Origin: Sphingomonas sp. SORGH_AS_0950
GTDB lineage: Bacteria; Pseudomonadota; Alphaproteobacteria; Sphingomonadales; Sphingomonadaceae
DNA length: 64,000 nucleotides
Assembly: GCF_030818415.1 (NCBI RefSeq)
Contig: NZ_JAUTAE010000001.1
Location: 2,630,001-2,694,000, forward strand
Direction: 5' to 3'
The notes beneath the pieces were generated by a model. It was given only the letters and a program-made list of their open reading frames with translations. It ran no database searches and was not told the origin of the DNA. Both the position numbers and the translations under genes were made by a program. Positions 25,115 to 57,519 of the stretch are shown one piece after another. Each line of letters starts with the position of its first letter. The stretch's first letter is position 1.

Positions 25115-25127
25115 CGGACCATATTTT

Positions 25128-25244
25128 TCCTCCCCTGCAAGGGGAGGGGGATCATGCGCAGCATGGTGGAGGGGTGTCACCCGATCGAGAGCGCGACACC
25201 CCTCCGTCAGCCCTTCGGGCTGCCACCTCCCCTCGCAGGGAGGA
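25128..25244. repeat. Palindromic GC-rich repeat, family B, copy 1
   Basis: It begins TCCTCCCCTGCAAGGGGAGG and ends with the complement-like CCTCCCCTCGCAGGGAGGA, with a conserved inner inverted GGTGGAGGGGTGT/ACACCCCTCC. The same design occurs inside truB (43301-43429) and at 52016-52123. Confidence 0.8.
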
Positions 25245-25257
25245 ATAGCCAAAACCT

Positions 25258-25288
25258 CCGTTCAGCCTGAGCGAAGTCGAAGGCCACG
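25258..25288 (+). repeat. Dispersed repeat, family A, copy 1
   Basis: Core TTCAGCCTGAGCGAAGTCGA followed by AGGCCACG. Ten copies of this core, in both orientations, occur in the window, nearly all between genes. This one forms an inverted pair with copy 2. Confidence 0.85.
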
Positions 25289-25321
25289 CGGATCGCTCTC
25301 CAAACGTGGGATCATCGGATT

Positions 25322-25354
25322 CCCTTGGCCTTCGACTTCGCTCAGGCTGAACGG
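25322..25354 (-). repeat. Dispersed repeat, family A, copy 2
   Basis: Inverted copy facing copy 1 at a distance of 33 bases, so the pair could fold into a hairpin in the transcript from gltB. Confidence 0.85.
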
Positions 25355-28670: not shown

Positions 28671-28931
28671 CACAAATCCTTCGTGCCTATGGGCGAGTCG
28701 GGATGAGGAAAGTGGCTGATCGTCCCGTTGTTGCCGGTCTGGCCACATCCCTCTCCGAAGGGGAGAGGCACCACCTTGCCGGGAGGCAGGTTGGTGCCGG
28801 GCGACGGCCCGACTCTTGATGCTGCGTCGCCCCTAGCCGCGCGGCGGGGGGAAATCAAGCCGCGCGGCCGGATCGGACTAAGCCGACCAAAATAGCGCAA
28901 AGCATTGCGTATCGTCGCCGAAAGGTGGAAG

Positions 28932-31687: not shown

Positions 31688-31720
31688 CCGTTCAGCCTGA
31701 GCGAAGTCGAAGGCCAAGGG
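31688..31720 (+). repeat. Dispersed repeat, family A, copy 3
   Basis: Full core plus AGGCCAAGGG. It is paired with copy 4 in inverted orientation, with a partial family B-like G-rich stretch between them. Confidence 0.85.
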
Positions 31721-31758
31721 AATCCCTCATCCCAGGGGGCAGGGGAGAGGCTGGGGGC

Positions 31759-31787
31759 GTGGCCTTCGACTGCGCTCAGGCCGAACG
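31759..31787 (-). repeat. Dispersed repeat, family A, copy 4
   Basis: Inverted copy with two substitutions (TGCGCTCAGGCCGAACG). It lies between the converging sugar porter and ROK genes. Confidence 0.8.
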
Positions 31788-31801
31788 AAGGGGTGTGCCC
31801 C

Positions 31802-41279: not shown

Positions 41280-41282
41280 AAG

Positions 41283-41525
41283 GTTCGCGCAGAGGCGCAG
41301 AGGGCGCAGAGAAGAAGCGCCCCACGTTCAAACCTCGCCCCACCCCGGCGAAGGCCGGGGCCCAGTCTCCCTGTCGTAGATGGCGCGTTGCGCCGAGGCG
41401 GGGGAGGCAAACGTCCTGCGCCGCCGCCTGCCCGTGGCAACTGGACCCCGGCCTTCGCCGGGGTGGGGCATTGGGGGCGATTCGGAGAAGACTTCTCTGC
41501 GTCCTCCGCGCCTCTGCGCGAACCC
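41283..41525. repeat. Nested inverted repeats, families C and D
   Basis: Outer arms: GTTCGCGCAGAGGCGCAGAG (41283) and its inverse CTCTGCGCGAACC (ending 41525). Inner arms: CCCGGCGAAGGCCGGGGCC (41345) and the inverse CCCCGGCCTTCGCCGGGG (41446). The middle holds GGAGGCAAACG, which recurs in the composite copy at 49551-49823. Confidence 0.8.
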
Positions 41526-42199: not shown

Positions 42200-42808
42200 A
42201 TGGCCAAGCTCTATTTCTACTATGCCAGCATGAATGCCGGGAAATCGACCATGCTGCTGCAGGCCGATTTCAACTATCGCGAGCGGGGGATGAACACGAT
42301 GCTGTTCACCGCCGCGATCGACGATCGCTTCGCCTATGGCACCATCGCCTCGCGAATCGGCCTGTCGCAGCCCGCGACGCCGTTCCAGGCGACCACCGAT
42401 CTGGAGGCCTGCGCGCTCGACCGGCACGGACGCACGCCGCTGGCCTGTATCCTGGTCGACGAGGCGCAGTTCCTGACGCCCGAACAGGTCGATCAGCTGG
42501 CGAGGCTGGCCGACCGGCACCGGATTCCCGTGCTCTGCTATGGCCTGAGGACCGATTTCAAGGGCCAGCTCTTCCCCGGCTCGGCGCGGTTGCTGGCGCT
42601 GGCCGACACGCTCAGCGAGATCAAGTCGGTCTGCGTCTGCGGGGCCAAGGCGACGATGAACCTGCGCGTCGATGGCCAGGGCCAGGCGATCGCCGAGGGC
42701 GCGCAGACCGAGATCGGCGGCAATGACCGCTATATCGCGCTGTGCCGCCGCCATTTCGGCGAGGCGCTGGCGGGCGGCACGGTGCTTGAGGCACCGTCCT
42801 TGAGATAG
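42200..42808 (+). CDS. tdk: Thymidine kinase
   Basis: Type II thymidine kinase phosphorylates thymidine to dTMP for salvage. The P-loop is YYASMNAGKSTML (near residue 10), the Walker B element is ILVDEAQFLTPEQV (near 88), and the cysteine pair of the zinc lasso is seen in SVCVCGAKA, with a further Cys in ALCRRHF. The length is 202 aa, normal. It lies between yceI (divergent) and truB (same direction, 27 bases on), in a place where most relatives have no gene, so it is an insertion in the rbfA-truB block. Confidence 0.93.
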   Translation: MAKLYFYYASMNAGKSTMLLQADFNYRERGMNTMLFTAAIDDRFAYGTIASRIGLSQPATPFQATTDLEACALDRHGRTPLACILVDEAQFLTPEQVDQLARLADRHRIPVLCYGLRTDFKGQLFPGSARLLALADTLSEIKSVCVCGAKATMNLRVDGQGQAIAEGAQTEIGGNDRYIALCRRHFGEALAGGTVLEAPSLR

Positions 42809-42835: not shown

Positions 42836-43837
42836 ATGCATGGATGGATCATACTCGACAAGCCGCTGGGGCTCGGCTCGACGCAAGGGGTGAGCGCGGT
42901 CAAGCGCGTGCTGCGCCAGGGCGGCTATGGCAAGGGGATCAAGGTCGGCCATGGCGGCACGCTCGACCCGCTGGCGACCGGCGTGTTGCCGATCGCGGTG
43001 GGCGAGGCGACCAAGCTGGCCGGGCGGATGCTCGACAGCGACAAGGTGTACGACTTCACCATCCGCTTCGGCGCGCAGACATCGACGCTGGATGCCGAGG
43101 GCGAGGTGGTCGCTGAGAGCGATGTCCGCCCGACTCGCGCGGCGCTGGAGGCGGTGCTGCCGCGCTTCACCGGCCCGATCGAACAGGTGCCCCCCGCCTA
43201 TTCCGCGCTGAAGGTGGATGGCGAGCGCGCCTATGACCTGGCGCGGGCCGGGGAAGAGGTGGTGCTGGCGAGTCGCAGCGTTACGATTCACTCCCTCAAA
43301 TCCTCCCCAAGCTCGCTTGGGGAGGGGGACCATCGCGCCAGCGATGGTGGAGGGGCGGGACGGACCGGCGATGCCCCTCCACCACGCCCTGCGGGCGCGG
43401 TCCCCCTCCCCGAGCAAGCTCAGGGAGGATTGGAAGACATCACCCTCACCGCGCATGTCTCCAAGGGCACCTATATCCGCTCCCTTGCGCGCGACATCGC
43501 GCTGGCGCTGGGTACGGTGGGCCATGTCACCATGCTCCGCCGGATCAAGGCGGGGCCGTTCACCCTGGCCTCGGCGATATCGCTGGACAAATTGAACGAA
43601 ATGGGGCAGGCGCGCGGGCTTGAAGAGATACTCCTGCCGCTGAGGGCGGGGCTGGACGACATCCCGGCTCTCGCGCTCGACCCCGACCAGGCAGGGGCGC
43701 TCCGTCAGGGGCGTGTGCTGGTCGGGATTGCCGCTGACGATGGCCAATATTTCGCGATGCTGGGCGACCGCCCGGTGGCGCTGGTGGAGGCGCTGGACGG
43801 GGACGTCCGGGTCGTGCGCGGTTTCAACCTCGATTAA
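42836..43837 (+). CDS. truB: tRNA pseudouridine(55) synthase, with an in-frame repeat insertion
   Basis: TruB makes pseudouridine at position 55 in the T loop of most tRNAs. The catalytic Asp is in HGGTLDPLATGVLPIAVG (near residue 42) and the YDFTIRFGAQTSTLDAEGE and PPAYSALKVDGERAYDLAR segments are typical. The C-terminal part holds HVSKGTYIRSLARDIA. Between SVTIHSLKS and LEDITLTAHV lies an insertion of about 43 codons (43301-43429), rich in Gly/Pro/Arg/Ser, that is a copy of the family B palindrome. It sits on a predicted surface loop and keeps the frame. Total length 333 aa, near 290 without it. Confidence 0.93.
   Translation: MHGWIILDKPLGLGSTQGVSAVKRVLRQGGYGKGIKVGHGGTLDPLATGVLPIAVGEATKLAGRMLDSDKVYDFTIRFGAQTSTLDAEGEVVAESDVRPTRAALEAVLPRFTGPIEQVPPAYSALKVDGERAYDLARAGEEVVLASRSVTIHSLKSSPSSLGEGDHRASDGGGAGRTGDAPPPRPAGAVPLPEQAQGGLEDITLTAHVSKGTYIRSLARDIALALGTVGHVTMLRRIKAGPFTLASAISLDKLNEMGQARGLEEILLPLRAGLDDIPALALDPDQAGALRQGRVLVGIAADDGQYFAMLGDRPVALVEALDGDVRVVRGFNLD
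43301..43429. repeat. Family B palindrome inside truB
   Basis: It begins TCCTCCCCAAGCTCGCTTGG and ends GAGCAAGCTCAGGGAGGA. It shares the inner GGTGGAGGGGC and CCCCTCCACC blocks with the intergenic copies at 25128 and 52016. The length is 129 bases (43 codons), with no stop in the truB frame, so the protein is kept open. Confidence 0.85.
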
Positions 43838-43849
43838 GAAAGGACCACG

Positions 43850-44119
43850 ATGTCGATCACCGCTGAACGCCGCCAGGAAATCATCAAGGACCATGCCCGC
43901 GCCGAGGGTGACACGGGTTCGCCCGAAGTCCAGGTCGCGATCCTGACCGAGCGGATCCAGAACCTGACCGGCCACTTCAAGACCCATGCGAAGGACAATC
44001 ATTCGCGTCGCGGTCTGCTGATGCTGGTCAACAAGCGTCGCTCGCTGCTCGACTATCTGCGTCACAAGGATGGCGACCGCTATCTGGCGCTGATCGCCAA
44101 GCTCGGCCTGCGCAAGTAA
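43850..44119 (+). CDS. rpsO: 30S ribosomal protein S15
   Basis: S15 binds 16S rRNA early in 30S assembly. The protein has the full family sequence, with [20 protein letters not shown] and [23 protein letters not shown], and 89 aa, the normal size. The start has AAAGGACCACG upstream, 12 bases after truB. A terminator follows at 44143-44178. The adjacent pnp gene is typical: in many bacteria rpsO and pnp form one unit. Confidence 0.98.
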
Positions 44120-44369: not shown

Positions 44370-46694
<2,325 letters not shown>

Positions 46695-46746: not shown

Positions 46747-46774
46747 CGTTTGGGGCGAATGCGGGTGGGTGATT

Positions 46775-46807
46775 CCCTTGGCCTTCGACTTCGCTCAGGC
46801 TGAACGG
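46775..46807 (-). repeat. Dispersed repeat, family A, copy 6
   Basis: Full-length inverted copy, starting CCCTTGGCC and ending GAACGG. Confidence 0.85.
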
Positions 46808-46836
46808 CGTTCGGGAATGGGTCTGGACACGAAAAT

Positions 46837-46867
46837 CCGTTCAGCCTGAGCGAAGTCGAAGGCCACG
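46837..46867 (+). repeat. Dispersed repeat, family A, copy 7
   Basis: Full-length copy facing copy 6 at a distance of 29 bases, so the two could pair as a hairpin. Confidence 0.85.
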
Positions 46868-46999
46868 CCCCGACCCCCGCCGCGTGCGTTCCGGAGTCAA
46901 GATTCCCGTGCGAAAGTCAGCCCGCTACCACCACCCTGACGAACGCTGGGTAAGTCCCGCAGGAGCGGATGCGCCCGCGCCGGACCCGCGCGAGGGCGG

Positions 47000-49442: not shown

Positions 49443-49823
49443 GTTAAGGCTCCCCTGTTTGGGGTCTCCAAAGCGCAGGCGCGTCGGGGGTTCCAGCTTT
49501 TTGTTACGCAGGCGTCCTCCGGATGTCAGGAAATCCAATGCCGCATTGTTCCCCGGCAAAGGCCGGGGTCCAGTTTCCTCGCGGCCAAAGGCGCGCGAAA
49601 CGATGCGTGGGAAGGCAAACGCCCCGCGTTCTCGATCATTCACCCCTACTGGGCCCCGGCCTTCGCCGGGGAACGAAGAAGATTCTGTTCGCGCAGAGGC
49701 GCGGAGGACGCAGAGGGGGTTCGTTCAACCACCTTGGCGACGGTCATCATGCACCGTCGAAGATGACAGGACGCGCGTTCCGCGCGCCGGACCTCTCTGC
49801 GTTCTCCGCGCCTCTGCGCGAAC
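49443..49823. other. 381-base intergenic stretch filled with repeats
   Basis: It holds the second composite of families C and D: D inverted pair at 49551-49576 and 49649-49674, then C copies at 49687-49718 and, inverted, 49793-49823. The last repeat reaches the end of the Rel/SpoT gene. Confidence 0.75.
49551..49823. repeat. Repeat families D and C, second composite copy
   Basis: D arms CCCCGGCAAAGGCCGGGG (49551) and CCCCGGCCTTCGCCGGGG (49653) face each other around GGAAGGCAAACG, the element also present in the copy at 41283. C arms are GTTCGCGCAGAGGCGCGGAG (49687) and its inverse ending GCGCGAACC (49823). In this copy the C pair follows the D pair instead of surrounding it. Confidence 0.75.
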
Positions 49824-51923
49824 CTAAACCCGCTCGACCGAACTCACCACATCCGCCGCGCGCAAGGCGGCGATCAGGCGCATCAGGTGTTGCAGGTCAT
49901 GCACCTCCACATCGATCAGGTTCGTGTGGAAGCGCGTGTCGCGGGTATCCAGCCGGACGTTGATGATGTTCGCCTTATGCTGGCCGATGATCGTCGCCAG
50001 GATGCCCAGCGCGCCGGGTTCGTTCTTGACCATCACCGAGATTCGCGCGGTCGCGCCCTCGCTGTCGTCGCCCCAGGACACGTCGACCCAGTCGGTTTCC
50101 TCGTCGGTCCGGTCGGCCAGCTCGGCGAGGACCGGGCACTGGATCGCGTGCACCTCGATCCCCGCATCCGGCCGCCGCAGCCCGACGATGCGGTCGCCCG
50201 GCACCGGGTGGCAGCATTGCGCCAGGTCATAGGCGACGCCGGGCGTCAGCCCCTTGATCGAGATGGCGCTCGACTGCGGCGGCAGCGCGGCGACGTCCGC
50301 GCCTGCCGAGCCCGGCATCAGCGCCTCCATCACCGCGGCATCCGACACGGTCCGCCTGGCGATCGCGATCATCAGATGCGCCTCGTCGGGCATCTTCAGC
50401 CGTTGCAGCGCATGGGTCAGCGCGTCCGCGCCGATCTGGGCGGGCAGACGCCGGACGATATCCTCGTACAGCTTGGTGCCCAGCGTCACCTGCTCGGCGC
50501 GCTCGGCATGGCGCAGATGGCGGCGGATCGCGGCCAGCGCCTTGCCGGTGATCGCCAGGTTCAGCCAGTTCGCCTGCGGCGTCTGCCCGGCTGAGCGCAG
50601 GATCTGCACCTGGTCGCCATTGGAGATGACGGTCGACAGCGGCACCACCCGCCCGTTGAGCTTGGCCCCCACCGCCTGGTCGCCCAGATCGGTGTGCACG
50701 GCATAGGCGAAGTCGATCGGCGTCGCGCCCTTGGGCAGCTGGATCAGCTCGCCCTTCGGCGTGAAGGCGAAGATGCGATCCTGGTACATCGCCATCTTCG
50801 TATGCTCGATCAGCTCCTCGGGGCTGTCCGAGGTGTCGAGGATTTCGACCAGGTCGCGAATCCAGCTCACCTGCGCATCGTGGCGGGTCGCCTGTTTATA
50901 GGTCCAGTGCGCCGCCAGACCGAAATCGGCCTCGGCATGCATTTCCGGCGTGCGGATCTGGATTTCGATACGCGCATTGTCGGCGTGGATGACGCTGGTG
51001 TGGAGCGAGCGGTATCCGTTGCGCTTGGGCGTCGAGATATAATCCTTGAACCGCCCCGGCACCATCGGCCAGCGGCGATGGATCAGCCCCAGCGCGCGGT
51101 AGCAATCCTCCTCGGTCGGCACGATCGCGCGGAACGCCATGACGTCGGACAGCTGCTCGAAGCTGATGTGCCGCTCGTTCATCTTGCGGAAGATCGAAAA
51201 GGCCGATTTCTCGCGCCCCGTCACCTCGGCCTCCACCCCGCCGCGCGACATCAGCAGCTTCAGTCCCGAGGCGATCTTGGAAATCCGGTCGCCGCCGCCT
51301 TCCTTCATTTGCGCCAGGCGAAGCGTGATCGACTCATACGCCTCGGGTTCGAGCTGCTGGAAGGAGAGCATCTGCATCTCCTTCATGAACTCGTACATGC
51401 CGATCCGCTCGGCGAGCGGGGCATAGATGTCCATCGTCTCCTTCGCGATGCGGCGGCGCTTCTCCGGCTTCGCGATGTGATGGAGCGTGCGCATATTGTG
51501 GAGGCGATCGGCCAGCTTGACCAGCAGGACGCGGATATCGTCCGACATGGCGAGCAGGAACTTGCGCAGATTCTCGGCGGCGCGTTCGCTCTCGGTCTGC
51601 GCCTCGATCTTGGACAGCTTGGTGACGCCATCGACCAGCCGCGCGACATTGGGACCGAACAGCCGTTCGATCTCGTCATAGGTGGCGACCGTGTCCTCGA
51701 TCGTGTCATGCAGGATGGCGGTCGCGATCGTCTCGTCATCCAGATGCAGGTCGGTCAGGATGCCGGCCACCTCGATCGGATGGCTGAAATAGGGATCGCC
51801 CGAGGCACGTTTCTGGCTGCCATGCGCCTTCATCGAGAAGACGTAAGCGCGGTTCAGCAGCGCCTCATCGGCCTGGGGGTCATAGTCGAGCACGCGGTCG
51901 ACGAGTTCATACTGGCGGAGCAC
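49824..51923 (-). CDS. Bifunctional (p)ppGpp synthetase/hydrolase (Rel/SpoT)
   Basis: Rel/SpoT enzymes make and break the alarmone (p)ppGpp during stress. The hydrolase domain has HPIEVAGILTDLHLDD and TAILHDTIEDTVATYDE (HD motif, residues about 45-90). The synthetase domain has RFKDYISTPKRNGYRSLHTSV (near residue 290). A TGS domain follows (IFAFTPKGELIQLPKGATPIDFAY) and an ACT domain ends the protein (RISVMVKNEPGALGILATII). The frame can start at an ATG at 51962, but the GTG at 51923 begins the usual alphaproteobacterial N-terminus (LRQYELVDRV); neither has a good ribosome site. 699 aa from the GTG. Confidence 0.95.
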   Translation of the reverse strand: MLRQYELVDRVLDYDPQADEALLNRAYVFSMKAHGSQKRASGDPYFSHPIEVAGILTDLHLDDETIATAILHDTIEDTVATYDEIERLFGPNVARLVDGVTKLSKIEAQTESERAAENLRKFLLAMSDDIRVLLVKLADRLHNMRTLHHIAKPEKRRRIAKETMDIYAPLAERIGMYEFMKEMQMLSFQQLEPEAYESITLRLAQMKEGGGDRISKIASGLKLLMSRGGVEAEVTGREKSAFSIFRKMNERHISFEQLSDVMAFRAIVPTEEDCYRALGLIHRRWPMVPGRFKDYISTPKRNGYRSLHTSVIHADNARIEIQIRTPEMHAEADFGLAAHWTYKQATRHDAQVSWIRDLVEILDTSDSPEELIEHTKMAMYQDRIFAFTPKGELIQLPKGATPIDFAYAVHTDLGDQAVGAKLNGRVVPLSTVISNGDQVQILRSAGQTPQANWLNLAITGKALAAIRRHLRHAERAEQVTLGTKLYEDIVRRLPAQIGADALTHALQRLKMPDEAHLMIAIARRTVSDAAVMEALMPGSAGADVAALPPQSSAISIKGLTPGVAYDLAQCCHPVPGDRIVGLRRPDAGIEVHAIQCPVLAELADRTDEETDWVDVSWGDDSEGATARISVMVKNEPGALGILATIIGQHKANIINVRLDTRDTRFHTNLIDVEVHDLQHLMRLIAALRAADVVSSVERV

Positions 51924-52015
51924 GGGATCAGATTTGCGTGGGTGGGATGACCATTGCAACATTTTTGATGCGATCAGGGTGATCGGGTGGGCTTCTCAAG
52001 CCGCTTTCTTCTTCA

Positions 52016-52123
52016 AGCCCCTCTCCCGGCAGGGGGAGGGGTTGGGGAGGGGCAAGAGCCACGAGGGCTGGTCTCTGTGAGACCCCGTGCCCTCCCCCAT
52101 CCCCTCCCGCCTGCGGGAGGGGA
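52016..52123. repeat. Palindromic GC-rich repeat, family B, copy 3
   Basis: It begins with CCCCTCTCCCGGCAGGGGGA and ends with CCCGCCTGCGGGAGGGGA, an inverted pair, with GGTCTCTGTGAGACC as a central small hairpin. The inner part differs from the copies at 25128 and 43301, so this is a divergent member. Confidence 0.7.
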
Positions 52124-52156
52124 GCGGCTAGAGGTGAGGAAGGCCTATACCAACCT

Positions 52157-52191
52157 CCGTTCCGCCTGAGCGAAGTCGAAGGCCACGGGAA
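52157..52191 (+). repeat. Dispersed repeat, family A, copy 8
   Basis: Core with one substitution (TTCCGCCTGAG in place of TTCAGCCTGAG). It ends one base before the stop codon of the helicase gene. Confidence 0.8.
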
Positions 52192-54603
52192 TCACCCCGC
52201 CATCGCCTCCGCCGCCAGAGCCTCCGCCTCGATCAGCAACTCGTCGTCCGCAGTCCCCGTCGCCACCTTCTCGCGCCCGATCAGCACCAGCACCGGCACC
52301 GCCAGCGGGCTTACCCGCTCCAGATCGACATGCAGCATCGTGCCGCCCGCCCGGTCGAGCAAATTCGCCAGCCGCCCCACATCGGTCATCCGCGCCCGCG
52401 CATCGTCCCACGCCGCCTGGAGCAGCAGATGGCCGGGCTCGTACTTGCGTAGCACGTCGTAGATCAGGTCGGTCGAGAAGGTCACCTGCCGCCCGGTCTT
52501 GCGCTTGCCGGGATGCTGGCGGTCGACCAGCCCGCCGATCACCGCGACCTCGCGAAAGGCGCGCTTGAGGAGGTGCGATTGCTGGACCCAGTCGACGAAC
52601 TCGTTTTCCAGAATGTCGGGCGAGAAGAGGCTGGCCGGGTCGGTCACCTTCTCCAGCCCATAGCATGCCAGCGCATAGTCGCTGGCGACGAAGCCCAGCG
52701 GCTTCAGCCCCTGCGCCTCCATCCGCCTTGTGATCAGCATCCCCAGCGACTGGTGCGCGTTCCACCCCTCGAAGCTGTAGGCGACCATATAATGCCGCCC
52801 CTCGCGCGGGAAGGTCTCGACCAGCAACTGGCCGGGGCGGGGCAGGACCGAGCGGCGGTCCTGCATCTCCAGCCAGGCATGCACGTCCGCCGGGAAGCGA
52901 TCCCACTCGCGCCGGTCGGCCAGGAATTCGCGGACCCGGTCGGCCAGGCTGGTAGACAGCGGCATCCGGCTGCCGCCATAGGTCGGGATGCGCGCAGGGC
53001 GGGAGGTGGCGCGGACGATCAGGTCCTCGCCGTCGATCGATTCCACCTCCAGGCTCAACCCGGCGAAGAAGAAGGTGTCGCCCGGCGCCAGGGTCGCGGC
53101 GAATCCTTCCTCCACCCGGCCCAGCTGGCGGCCGTTGCGGAAGCGGACCTTCAGCATCGTCGCTTCCACGATGATCCCGGCGTTCAGCCGGTGCTGCGCG
53201 ACGAATTGCGGATGGGTGACGCGCCACGTCCCGTCCGGCTGCTGCACCAGCCGCTTGAACCGGTCATAGGCGCGCAGGGCATAGCCGCCGTCCGCGATGA
53301 AGCGCAGCACCCGGTCGAACGTCTCATCGTCCAACGCCGAATAGGGCATGGCCGAGCGGATTTCGCCCAGCAGCGCGCCCTGTTCGAACGGCGCGGCACA
53401 GGCGCAGGCCATGACATGCTGCGCCAGCACGTCGAGCGCGCCGGGGCGGAAGAGGTCGGGGTCCAGCTCGCCCGCCTCCACCGCGTCGAGCGCGGCGCGC
53501 GCCTCCAGATATTCAAAGCGGTTGCCGGGGACCAGGATCGCGCGGCTCGATTCGTCCAGCCGGTGATTGGCGCGACCGATCCGTTGGAGCAGGCGTGACG
53601 AGCCCTTGGGCGCACCCATCTGGATCACGCAATCGACATCACCCCAGTCGACGCCCAGGTCGAGGCTGGCGGTCGCGACCAGCGCGCGCAGTTGCCCGTC
53701 GGCCATCGCGCCTTCCACCTTCTGCCGCGCTTCCAGGGACAGCGAGCCGTGATGGACGCCGATCGGCAGGCTCTTGTCGTTCGCCTTCCACAGATCCTGG
53801 AAGATCAGCTCGGCCAGGCTGCGGGTGTTGCAGAAGACGATGGTGGTCCGGTTCGCCTCGATGACGCGCATGACCTGCGCGGCGGCATAGCGGCCCGAAT
53901 GGCCTGCCCAGGGAATGCGGTCCTCGGGCAGCAGGATCGCTATGTCCGGCGGCGCGCCGGGCTCGCCCGCGACGAGGCCGACCGCGTCGATATCGCCATC
54001 GGGCGCGAGCCAGGCGCGATAGCCGTCGGGGTCCGCCACCGTCGCCGACAGCGCGACCCGTCGCAGACCGGGCGACAGGTGCTGCAACCGCGCCATGCAC
54101 AAGGACAGCAGGTCGCCGCGCTTGCCGGTGGCAAAGGCGTGGACCTCGTCCACCACGATGGTCTTGAGTCCTGCGAACATGGTCGCGGCATCGGGATAGC
54201 TCAGCAGCAGCGACAGCGATTCGGGCGTCGTCAGCAGGATGTGCGGCGGCTTCACCCGTTGCCGCGCCTTCTTGTCCGACGAGGTGTCGCCGGTCCGCGT
54301 CTCGACCCGGATGTCGAGGCCCATCTCCTCGATCGGGGTCACGAGGTTGCGGCGGATATCGACCGCCAGCGCCTTCAGGGGCGAGACGTAGAGGGTGTGC
54401 AGCCCCTCGCTCGGTTGCTCGATCAACTCGGTCAGCGTCGGCAGGAACCCCGCCAGCGTCTTGCCCGCGCCCGTGGTGGCGACCAGCAGCGCGTGGCGGC
54501 CGGCGCGGGCTTCCTCCAGCATCGCCAACTGATGGGTGCGCGGGTGCCAGCCCTTGGCGGCGAACCAGTCGGTCAGGGCGGGCGGAAGGGAACCGGGGAG
54601 CAT
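52192..54603 (-). CDS. Ligase-associated DNA-damage-response DEXH-box helicase
   Basis: The protein is a superfamily 2 helicase of the Lhr type found beside ATP-dependent ligases in many bacteria. The Walker A motif is LLVATTGAGKTLAG (near residue 40), the DEVHA box is at TIVVDEVHAFATGKRG and the SAT motif at VALSATVADPDGY. Motif VI appears in SSRLLQRIGRANHRLDE near residue 345. The C-terminal part fits the Lhr core. The start at 54603 is chosen because the frame to 54630 would overlap the divergent exonuclease start (54623). Only 19 bases separate the two genes. The associated ligase is not in the window. Confidence 0.92.
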   Translation of the reverse strand: MLPGSLPPALTDWFAAKGWHPRTHQLAMLEEARAGRHALLVATTGAGKTLAGFLPTLTELIEQPSEGLHTLYVSPLKALAVDIRRNLVTPIEEMGLDIRVETRTGDTSSDKKARQRVKPPHILLTTPESLSLLLSYPDAATMFAGLKTIVVDEVHAFATGKRGDLLSLCMARLQHLSPGLRRVALSATVADPDGYRAWLAPDGDIDAVGLVAGEPGAPPDIAILLPEDRIPWAGHSGRYAAAQVMRVIEANRTTIVFCNTRSLAELIFQDLWKANDKSLPIGVHHGSLSLEARQKVEGAMADGQLRALVATASLDLGVDWGDVDCVIQMGAPKGSSRLLQRIGRANHRLDESSRAILVPGNRFEYLEARAALDAVEAGELDPDLFRPGALDVLAQHVMACACAAPFEQGALLGEIRSAMPYSALDDETFDRVLRFIADGGYALRAYDRFKRLVQQPDGTWRVTHPQFVAQHRLNAGIIVEATMLKVRFRNGRQLGRVEEGFAATLAPGDTFFFAGLSLEVESIDGEDLIVRATSRPARIPTYGGSRMPLSTSLADRVREFLADRREWDRFPADVHAWLEMQDRRSVLPRPGQLLVETFPREGRHYMVAYSFEGWNAHQSLGMLITRRMEAQGLKPLGFVASDYALACYGLEKVTDPASLFSPDILENEFVDWVQQSHLLKRAFREVAVIGGLVDRQHPGKRKTGRQVTFSTDLIYDVLRKYEPGHLLLQAAWDDARARMTDVGRLANLLDRAGGTMLHVDLERVSPLAVPVLVLIGREKVATGTADDELLIEAEALAAEAMAG

Positions 54604-55621: not shown

Positions 55622-55633
55622 GGGGGCGGGAAC

Positions 55634-55663
55634 GTGGCCTTCGACTTCGCTCAGGCTGAACGG
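55634..55663 (-). repeat. Dispersed repeat, family A, copy 9
   Basis: Full-length inverted copy beginning GTGGCC, 12 bases after the exonuclease stop. Confidence 0.85.
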
Positions 55664-55680
55664 AGATTTGTCCCTTAACC

Positions 55681-55711
55681 CCGTTCAGGCTGAGCGAAGT
55701 CGAAGCCCAAG
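55681..55711 (+). repeat. Dispersed repeat, family A, copy 10
   Basis: Copy with two differences (CAGGCTGAGCGAAG and AAGCCC), facing copy 9 and just before the end of opgH. Confidence 0.8.
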
Positions 55712-55719
55712 GCAATCCC

Positions 55720-57519
55720 TCACACCAAGGCCAAAGGCCGGGCAGGATCCGCCACCACCGACCCCGGCACCGCGAACACGCCCTTCTTCGCCAACCGCTC
55801 GCCGGGCCGGACCTTGGCCGTCTCCATCGCCAGCCACGGCGCCAGCAGCAGCCCCAGCGTCACCGGCGACAGCCACGCGCCCAGCACCGGGTTCAGGAAC
55901 GACACCCCCAGGAACACCACGCCCAGCGCCAGATGCCAGCGATAGCGCGGCATCGCATCCGCCGCCGCCAGCCCGTCGCGCACCCGGCTCTGCGGGTTCC
56001 AGCCCGATGGCTTGCCGCGCATGATGTTGACGAGGTCGATCGTCTGGGTCAGCGCGATTCCCGGCGCGGTCAGGATCGACAGCGGCACGTCGAGCGCCAC
56101 CGAGGCCAGGATTGCGCGCGCGCCGCCATAGCTGGCCCGGCGTTCGCGGTCGGCCATCGCCCAGACGATACTCAGCAGCTTCGGCCCGAACAGCAGGATC
56201 AGCGTCACGACCAGCACCCGCGCCGACGTCACCGCACGCACCGTCGCGGCATCGTCGGACAGGCTCTGCGCGATCGAGGTGGCGATCAGGATCAGCCAAG
56301 CGGGCGAGGTCAGATAGGCCGAGGCGCCGATCAGCAGCTGCAACCGGCTGATCCAGTGGAAACCGCTCGCGCCCAGCAGTTTCAGATGCTGGGTATTGCC
56401 CTGCGCCCAGCGCCGGTCGCGCACCGCCTGGTCGATCAGCGTGGGGGGATATTCCTCGAAACTGTCCTCGACCATCAGCATGTGCAGCCGCCAGCCGCGC
56501 CGCCGCAGCAACGCCGCCTCGACCATGTCATGGCTCATGATCGTGCCGCCGAAGGGCGGACGGCCGGGCAGGTCGGGCAGGCCGCAACTCTCGGCAAAGG
56601 CGCGGATACGGATCAGCGCGTTATGTCCCCAGAAGGTCGATTCGGATCCCGACCACCAGACCAGCCCGGCGGTCGAGATCGGGCCGTAGAACCGGCTGGC
56701 GAACTGCATCCAGCGCTGGAAGAAGGTCGTCGCGCCGATGATCATCGGCACGGTCTGGAGAAGCGCGATCGAGGGGCGTTGCTCCATGATCTGCGCCATG
56801 CCGACGATGGTGTCGCCGCCCATCAGGCTGTCGGCATCGAGCATCAGCATGAAGTCGTAGGCCGCACCCTGGTTGCGGATCCAATCGGCCACATTGCCGG
56901 GCTTGCGCCCGACATTCTCGGTCCGGCGGCGATAATAGAGCGGCACCGCCAGCCAGGGGGCGAGCTTTTCCCAGGCGGCGCGCTCCTCGGCCTCGGCGGC
57001 TTCGCCCGAATCGGACAGGACGAAGAAGGCGAAACGGTCGGCCGCCCCCGCCCGGTCGATCATGACGGCCATGCGCGCGATCCGGTCGAACACCGCATCG
57101 ACATCCTCGTTATGCACCGGCACCAGCACCGCAGTCCGCGCGGTCGGCGGCGCCGCCCCCTTCGGCGCGGGGGTGATGCCCGGATGCGCGCGCGAGATCA
57201 GCAGGACGAAACCGATCGCCGCCGTCACGAAGCCGAACGAGATCCAGGCGAACAGCGGAAAGAACAGCAGCAGCAACAGCCCGTCGAGCAGGTTCAGCCC
57301 GTCGCTCAACAGGGCTTCCTTGACCGCGGCCGAGGCGGCGGTCGCCAGCAACCCGGTCAGCAGCACCAGCAGGAGCCGGCGGGTCAGGATATCGTCGGGC
57401 GCCAGATTGACCCCGGCGCGCGGCTCGGGCGCGGAGTGCGGCGGCGGCGGGCCATCGAAACGCTGCACCGCCATGGTCAGCGGTGCGGGCGGCGGCATGA
57501 TGGCGCGCGGATGGGTCAC
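55720..57519 (-). CDS. opgH: Glucans biosynthesis glucosyltransferase MdoH/OpgH
   Basis: OpgH elongates the glucan backbone of osmoregulated periplasmic glucans at the inner membrane. It is a GT2 enzyme with the DxD-type motif in DFMLMLDADSLMGGDTI (near residue 210) and a QxxRW-like DRRWAQGNTQHL near 350. Membrane segments lie at the N-terminus (LLLVLLTGLLATAASAA, then LLLLFFPLFAWISFGFV) and in the C-terminal third. The start is the GTG at 57519, overlapping the opgG stop (GTGA); an ATG at 57498 is also possible. About 599 aa, shorter than the roughly 850 aa enterobacterial protein because N-terminal and C-terminal extensions are absent. Confidence 0.9.
   Translation of the reverse strand: MTHPRAIMPPPAPLTMAVQRFDGPPPPHSAPEPRAGVNLAPDDILTRRLLLVLLTGLLATAASAAVKEALLSDGLNLLDGLLLLLFFPLFAWISFGFVTAAIGFVLLISRAHPGITPAPKGAAPPTARTAVLVPVHNEDVDAVFDRIARMAVMIDRAGAADRFAFFVLSDSGEAAEAEERAAWEKLAPWLAVPLYYRRRTENVGRKPGNVADWIRNQGAAYDFMLMLDADSLMGGDTIVGMAQIMEQRPSIALLQTVPMIIGATTFFQRWMQFASRFYGPISTAGLVWWSGSESTFWGHNALIRIRAFAESCGLPDLPGRPPFGGTIMSHDMVEAALLRRRGWRLHMLMVEDSFEEYPPTLIDQAVRDRRWAQGNTQHLKLLGASGFHWISRLQLLIGASAYLTSPAWLILIATSIAQSLSDDAATVRAVTSARVLVVTLILLFGPKLLSIVWAMADRERRASYGGARAILASVALDVPLSILTAPGIALTQTIDLVNIMRGKPSGWNPQSRVRDGLAAADAMPRYRWHLALGVVFLGVSFLNPVLGAWLSPVTLGLLLAPWLAMETAKVRPGERLAKKGVFAVPGSVVADPARPLALV

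Follow-up and report, generated by a model that had tools for sequence, protein, structure and literature searches.

The closest described systems are the Rickettsia palindromic elements (RPEs) and a group of REPs. RPEs are palindromes of 105-146 bp that lie outside genes and also in frame inside them (Ogata et al. 2000, 2002, as related in the accessible parts of PMC2229807 and PMC10969869), and in the accessible part of PMC2229807 a Rickettsia gmk product with an RPE insert is described as still active, with a changed substrate affinity. The accessible text of Di Nocera et al. (2013; PMC3733652) reports that the truB genes of S. maltophilia, 'E. lithoralis' and S. alaskensis contain REPs, the last two species being sphingomonads, and recalls RPE-1 in truB of R. 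conorii. The same text calls the effect of REPs on pseudouridine synthases unclear and states that, recB excepted, REPs in genes of one functional category occupy different sites. It treats CGTC repeats as lacking a transposase and offers two views of such families, namely that they are going extinct or that they are moved by other transposases. That truB is hit by repeats in sphingomonads is thus already known, and the sequence-only reading, which knew of no such case for a sphingomonad tRNA-modifying enzyme, was mistaken here. As far as that text goes, however, the truB loop is not named and truB sites are not compared across species. Here we examine a truB gene of Sphingomonas sp. SORGH_AS_0950 within a window of 64,000 nucleotides (the whole stretch of DNA analyzed) and compare the same loop in related genes.

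A palindromic repeat in the reading frame of truB

The gene product belongs to TruB by its equivalog model (TIGR00431, 215 bits against a cut-off of 151) and by its predicted fold; PF01509 lies at residues 36-156 and PF16198 at 215-272. The inserted element (table 1) is exactly 129 nt long, begins on a codon boundary and encodes 43 residues in the truB frame, as the sequence-only reading had proposed. It is an imperfect palindrome whose arms, by inverted-repeat search, are 86% complementary. The folding energy of positions 43290-43440 was -107.5 kcal/mol, compared with -66.9 (sd 4.2) for 200 dinucleotide shuffles, none of which folded as well (z = -9.6). Rfam found no family at the insert. In the AlphaFold model, residues 162-195 are predicted to be disordered within a beta-hairpin loop, between strands 147-156 and 201-208, and the predicted fold around them is E. 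coli-like and intact; the model thus favors the earlier suggestion that the insertion sits on a loop and spares the enzyme core.

Table 1. Features of the window, in window positions
Feature	Position	Strand	Remarks
Thymidine kinase gene	42200-42808		Precedes truB
truB, tRNA pseudouridine(55) synthase	42836..43837	+	333 aa including insert; ORF and TIGR00431
Inserted palindromic repeat	43301..43429	+	129 nt, residues 156-198 (SSPSSLGEGD...QAQGG)
Palindrome left arm	43296..43331		Repeat finder, pair I19; extends 5 bases outside the element
Palindrome right arm	43399..43434		Repeat finder, pair I19
rpsO (30S ribosomal protein S15)	43850..44119	+	TIGR00952; starts 12 bases 3' of truB
pnp (polyribonucleotide nucleotidyltransferase)	44370..46694	+	TIGR03591
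Family A copy outside truB	25125..25250		Alignment score; clusters with family A truB inserts
Family J repeat	52011..52135		Related to L102 truB insert at the laxest clustering threshold only
SAM-I/IV riboswitch	28717-28827	-	52.9 bits against a cut-off of 41.1
Repeats with CCGTTCAGCCTGAGCGAAGTCGAAGG and its inverse	25258-25354, 31688-31798, 46771-46886, 52157-52206, 55627-55730		Further family
Inverted repeats with GTTCGCGCAGAGGCG arms	41282-41524, 49687-49824		Separate family

Relatives of the element are numerous in the host genome. At least 76 blastn matches (E<=1e-3) were obtained, a rough number that includes double hits of the palindrome on both strands and rests on the best 40 of 103 first-look candidates. 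The best other copy is 90% identical over query positions 6-138, and copies elsewhere in the host genome reach 90-92% DNA identity over 112-133 nt. The search for further in-frame copies, which the sequence-only reading had called for, was run on 21 copies including that of truB; only the truB copy was open with coding-like composition on both sides, and by this test none of the 20 others lay inside a gene. An open frame is easily had, because 68 of 90 frames of copies outside genes were open.

Two intergenic repeats of the window had been named as members of one family with the insert. The one at 25128 is indeed a relative (local score 57, against 33 for the best of 500 shuffles that moved pairs of bases). 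The one at 52016 is not; its score of 22 was reached by 98 of 500 such shuffles, which rules it out as a relative, and at the laxest clustering threshold it joins family J, seen in truB of another genome (L102). The 'family B' of that reading therefore lumps two families. Two more repeat families were seen in the window. The truB insert of L173 matches two copies of the CCGTTCAGCCTGAGCGAAGTCGAAGG family at the laxest threshold only, and the family with GTTCGCGCAGAGGCG arms was matched by no truB insert in the clustering.

In size and palindromy (length, arm complementarity and fold) the element agrees with the accessible descriptions of RPEs, as it does in placement, with 20 copies outside coding frames and the truB copy in frame. 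The likeness seen is one of form and placement, so that the element is RPE-like and is not counted among the RPEs. Moreover, RPEs are described in those sources from many unrelated Rickettsia genes, whereas here several families concentrate on one truB loop. The CGTC-tagged REPs of alphaproteobacteria, as the accessible text of PMC3733652 presents them, are paired inverted units without a known transposase, and the same holds here. Most truB inserts of families B, C, E and F and the H insert start with CGTC or TGTC, as in CGTC REPs, and several loop families start with CGTCAT, which recalls the AT given in that text for the first two stem positions of the CGTC REP. The window element, of family A, starts T-CCTC-CCC, a variant of the CGTC tag listed there, and does not have AT at the stem start. 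In contrast, GTAG REPs and REPINs with a RAYT go with a Y1 transposase in the genome. PF01797 (Y1 transposase) gave no match in the host genome, while the control search was positive in 5 of 14 genomes, which rules out a resident PF01797 transposase as the mover of the repeats.

Distribution and turnover of inserts at the truB loop

From 162 truB loci (L031-L192) we obtained 139 distinct genes, after setting aside 18 duplicates and five loci without an anchor, one of them because of a contig edge before the loop (L053) and four because of the strict pattern (L068, L070, L098 and L142). Loop length was bimodal, with 15-29 residues in 54 genes and 37-84 in 85. The comparison of truB length among relatives, proposed earlier as a check that the 43 residues are not simply shared by all of them, therefore found 54 of the 139 genes empty. 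All 85 long loops are in frame and without a stop; the frames had been picked as open frames, and only the five anchorless loci failed. The four genes from other families of the order all have empty loops. The insert folded with z <= -5 in 71 of the 85 long loops, while in the 54 short loops the median was near -0.1 (range -4.8 to 1.6). The remaining 14 inserts fold weakly, among them that of L066, which resembles no repeat. Variability of the loop extends to genes without an insert.

When an empty-loop TruB was used as the query, 288 of the 295 genomes of the genus matched. By a count of these matches, the query was covered by a single piece in 112 genomes and by several pieces or in part in 176; the latter may reflect an insert or a contig end, and two one-piece genomes, G022 and G077, hold inserts. 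No TruB match was seen in seven genomes (G191, G219, G229, G274, G295, G298 and G300), two of them listed as 99% complete, and this may reflect a limit of the search, in which the best 8 first-look candidates per genome were scored. A Sphingopyxis query gave 120 nearest TruB proteins, of which 119 could be used; 43 of these were filled, with loops of 38-68 residues. Outside the order, all 66 measured truB genes of Pseudomonadota (56 with strict and 10 with looser anchors, from the 70 loci L237-L306; L277, L297, L303 and L304 were unmeasured) had no insert. At L053 (G019) and L207 (G086) a contig ends in or beside the truB loop, which could stem from the effect of a repeat on assembly or from the chosen start of a circle.

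The 85 inserts fell into 12 DNA clusters (E<=1e-5, 30% cover), in which L066 forms one cluster and families A and C share another, for which the C+A tandem of L050, hidden by its label C, is the probable link. This clustering replaced a first one that had chained 79 inserts through shared flanks. Family A, to which the window insert belongs, accounts for 59 of the 85; the label was at first the remainder after other patterns, and clustering then placed all 59 together. At the thresholds used, families B, D, G and others have no similarity to A. Seven families (A, B, C, D, E, G and K) are multicopy in host genomes, counted as matches on both strands. Family B has 29 matches in G024, 3 in G077, which itself bears a B insert, and none in the genome of the window. 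At least 67, 72, 61, 56 and 61 matches were found for family C in G197, G005, G101, G134 and G260, respectively; at least 82, 91 and 80 for D in G148, G022 and G134; at least 82 for E in G023; at least 39 for G in G031; and at least 73 for K in G074, with up to 96% identity to other sites of that genome over about 140 nt. These counts, except that of B, are rough, at most the best 40 candidates per genome having been scored. Inserts of families I and J could be matched to window repeats only when the laxest threshold was applied.

A tree built from the truB core, excluding the loop, requires at least 46 changes of insert state and at least 27 between filled and empty; both counts are uncontrolled by shuffles, and recombination of truB could inflate them. 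Well-supported sister genes differ in their inserts: L102 (J) and L175 (A), L089 (A) and L171 (C), L043 (A) and L108 (empty). Of strains named S. kyeonggiensis, L086 is filled and L087 empty. Among the 117 of 120 proteins whose cores were compared, the filled P0023 is separated from the empty P0043 by 2 of 271 core residues, and P0003 from P0007, which bears a different insert, by 1 of 271. Proteins that their sources name S. sanguinis include a filled one (P0028) and two empty ones (P0037 and P0042), each 4 of 271 core residues away, so that even under one species name the extra residues are not a constant part of the protein. Loops were less than 75% identical in 49 of the 93 gene pairs whose cores share at least 92% identity, and not in the other 44. 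Related inserts swap whole hairpin modules (L160, L074), and the short loops of L148, L192, L085, L082 and L093 resemble, by eye, hairpin remnants. Directly 5' of the insert in L124 (positions 1948-1970) there is a 9-base tandem duplication of the flank. The near-identical proteins with different inserts, together with the 96% identical copies, point to recent movement. The site has been repeatedly entered and left by sphingomonad repeats. The sequence-only reading was right that a repeat lies in the frame, but its picture of a single insertion does not hold, the site having been reused by different repeat families.

Frame bias and competing explanations

The inserts are not placed at random with respect to the frame. 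The 3' phases of the 59 family A inserts were distributed 52/3/1 (3 unread) and the 5' phases 44/13/0 (2 unread); the window insert, L158 and L166 are the three in the second 3' phase. Stops in other frames were ruled out as the cause, since in family A copies outside genes the three 3' phases are open equally often (21/21/22 of 28), and so was mean hydropathy (GRAVY -0.73/-0.72/-0.78). The truB inserts are poorer in hydrophobic residues (0.129 against about 0.19). A non-random frame requires more than bare tolerance, or else descent from few events. Few cases were found in other genes. The composition test was passed by two of the 14 selected stretches that carry an element. In one, a family A element is in frame and separates the two domains of a methylmalonyl-CoA mutase (L193, G016:C4:137893-141105, minus strand); the other, L203, has a frame without a recognized protein and was set aside as antisense-like. 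When proteins of 415-1320 aa were searched with the mutase insert, four turned up, an undercount because the search used a single frame of a single family. Three are methylmalonyl-CoA mutases with similar inserts (P0121-P0123, one named S. aquatilis), and the fourth (P0124, 908 aa) is methionine-synthase-like and contains a family-A-like peptide. So few other in-gene cases may mean that truB is favored, beyond mere tolerance.

We consider it likely that the TruB loop is permissive and that selection acts on the frame and the enzyme only. A palindromic repeat resident in many copies would place one of them in the loop joining two TruB beta-strands, where, as the model suggests, it would be read through as a disordered excursion rich in Gly and Pro. 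Insertions at other positions in genes would mostly be purged, whereas the truB loop, as a permissive landing site, may tolerate any repeat that keeps the frame. Exchange would proceed by new insertion, by deletions of which short hairpins remain, and by gene conversion, which in family A would swap hairpin modules between copies. Selection would thus bear on the frame and TruB function and little on the peptide. The frame bias, the few other genes hit, the 14 weakly folding inserts and L066 are points against simple tolerance.

The frame bias could instead be the trace of an actively refilled cassette, whose stem is functional in DNA or in the truB-rpsO-pnp message, or into which several palindrome families are targeted without a RAYT; as a whole we hold this to be unlikely. 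Its first form, in which any palindrome would serve and the stem is kept and refilled for its work, for example in message processing or stability, appears unlikely as well. It would account for the refilling of one site by several families, for the biased frame, and for the family A arms, which hardly differ among species, in contrast to the variable middle. It also draws on sequence likeness: the inserts of the window gene, L158 and L166 are 97.7% identical, their core third codon positions 80-83%, and the insert surpasses third codon positions in similarity in 82 of 83 pairs. But these pairs were chosen by insert identity (>=0.80), which favors that result, and when set against the whole core the insert is the more similar of the two in only 41 of them. 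The likeness may be due to recent arrival, to selection on the stem or to conversion between copies, which would likewise keep the arms similar, and the empty genes, some of them close relatives of filled ones, speak against a needed stem. Some as yet unnamed machinery inserting palindromes of several families at truB, the second form, is improbable. The several families at one loop, the few other genes found hit and the frame bias would suit it, but the elements start 10, 13, 14 and 16 nt from conserved codons in L036, L031, L034 and L033, so that there is no fixed insertion base, and the host genome lacks a PF01797 transposase.

A single old family A insertion, inherited and reshaped by conversion and deletion, would fit the predominance of family A in mostly one 3' frame and the swaps of hairpin modules. 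At the clustering thresholds used, however, it is excluded for the non-A families, and it may hold for some of the A inserts; the family differs between sister genes, and the window's group lies in another 3' frame, so that as a general account it is very improbable. Intervening sequences in some rRNAs are cut out of the transcript, and the very stable stem might suggest the same for the truB insert, which would then never be translated; yet none of the 85 long loops breaks the frame or contains a stop, a constraint that would be unneeded if they were removed, and we give this hardly any credence. That TruB merely has a naturally long, variable loop resembling repeats finds some support in the variability of empty loops. 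It is refuted by the empty genes with their 15-29 residues, by the DNA identity to other host copies and by the fold z-scores, and its probability is close to nil.

The permissive loop thus remains our preferred reading. The rapid exchange of repeat families at one TruB loop was not found in print in the open-licence literature searched, supplements aside. The filled and empty truB genes provide ready pairs of enzymes with and without a disordered loop, and in the insert they offer a stretch of protein whose exchange outpaces amino-acid change in the core. For the sphingomonads, the truB loop is a natural recorder of the recent movement of repeats without a known transposase.
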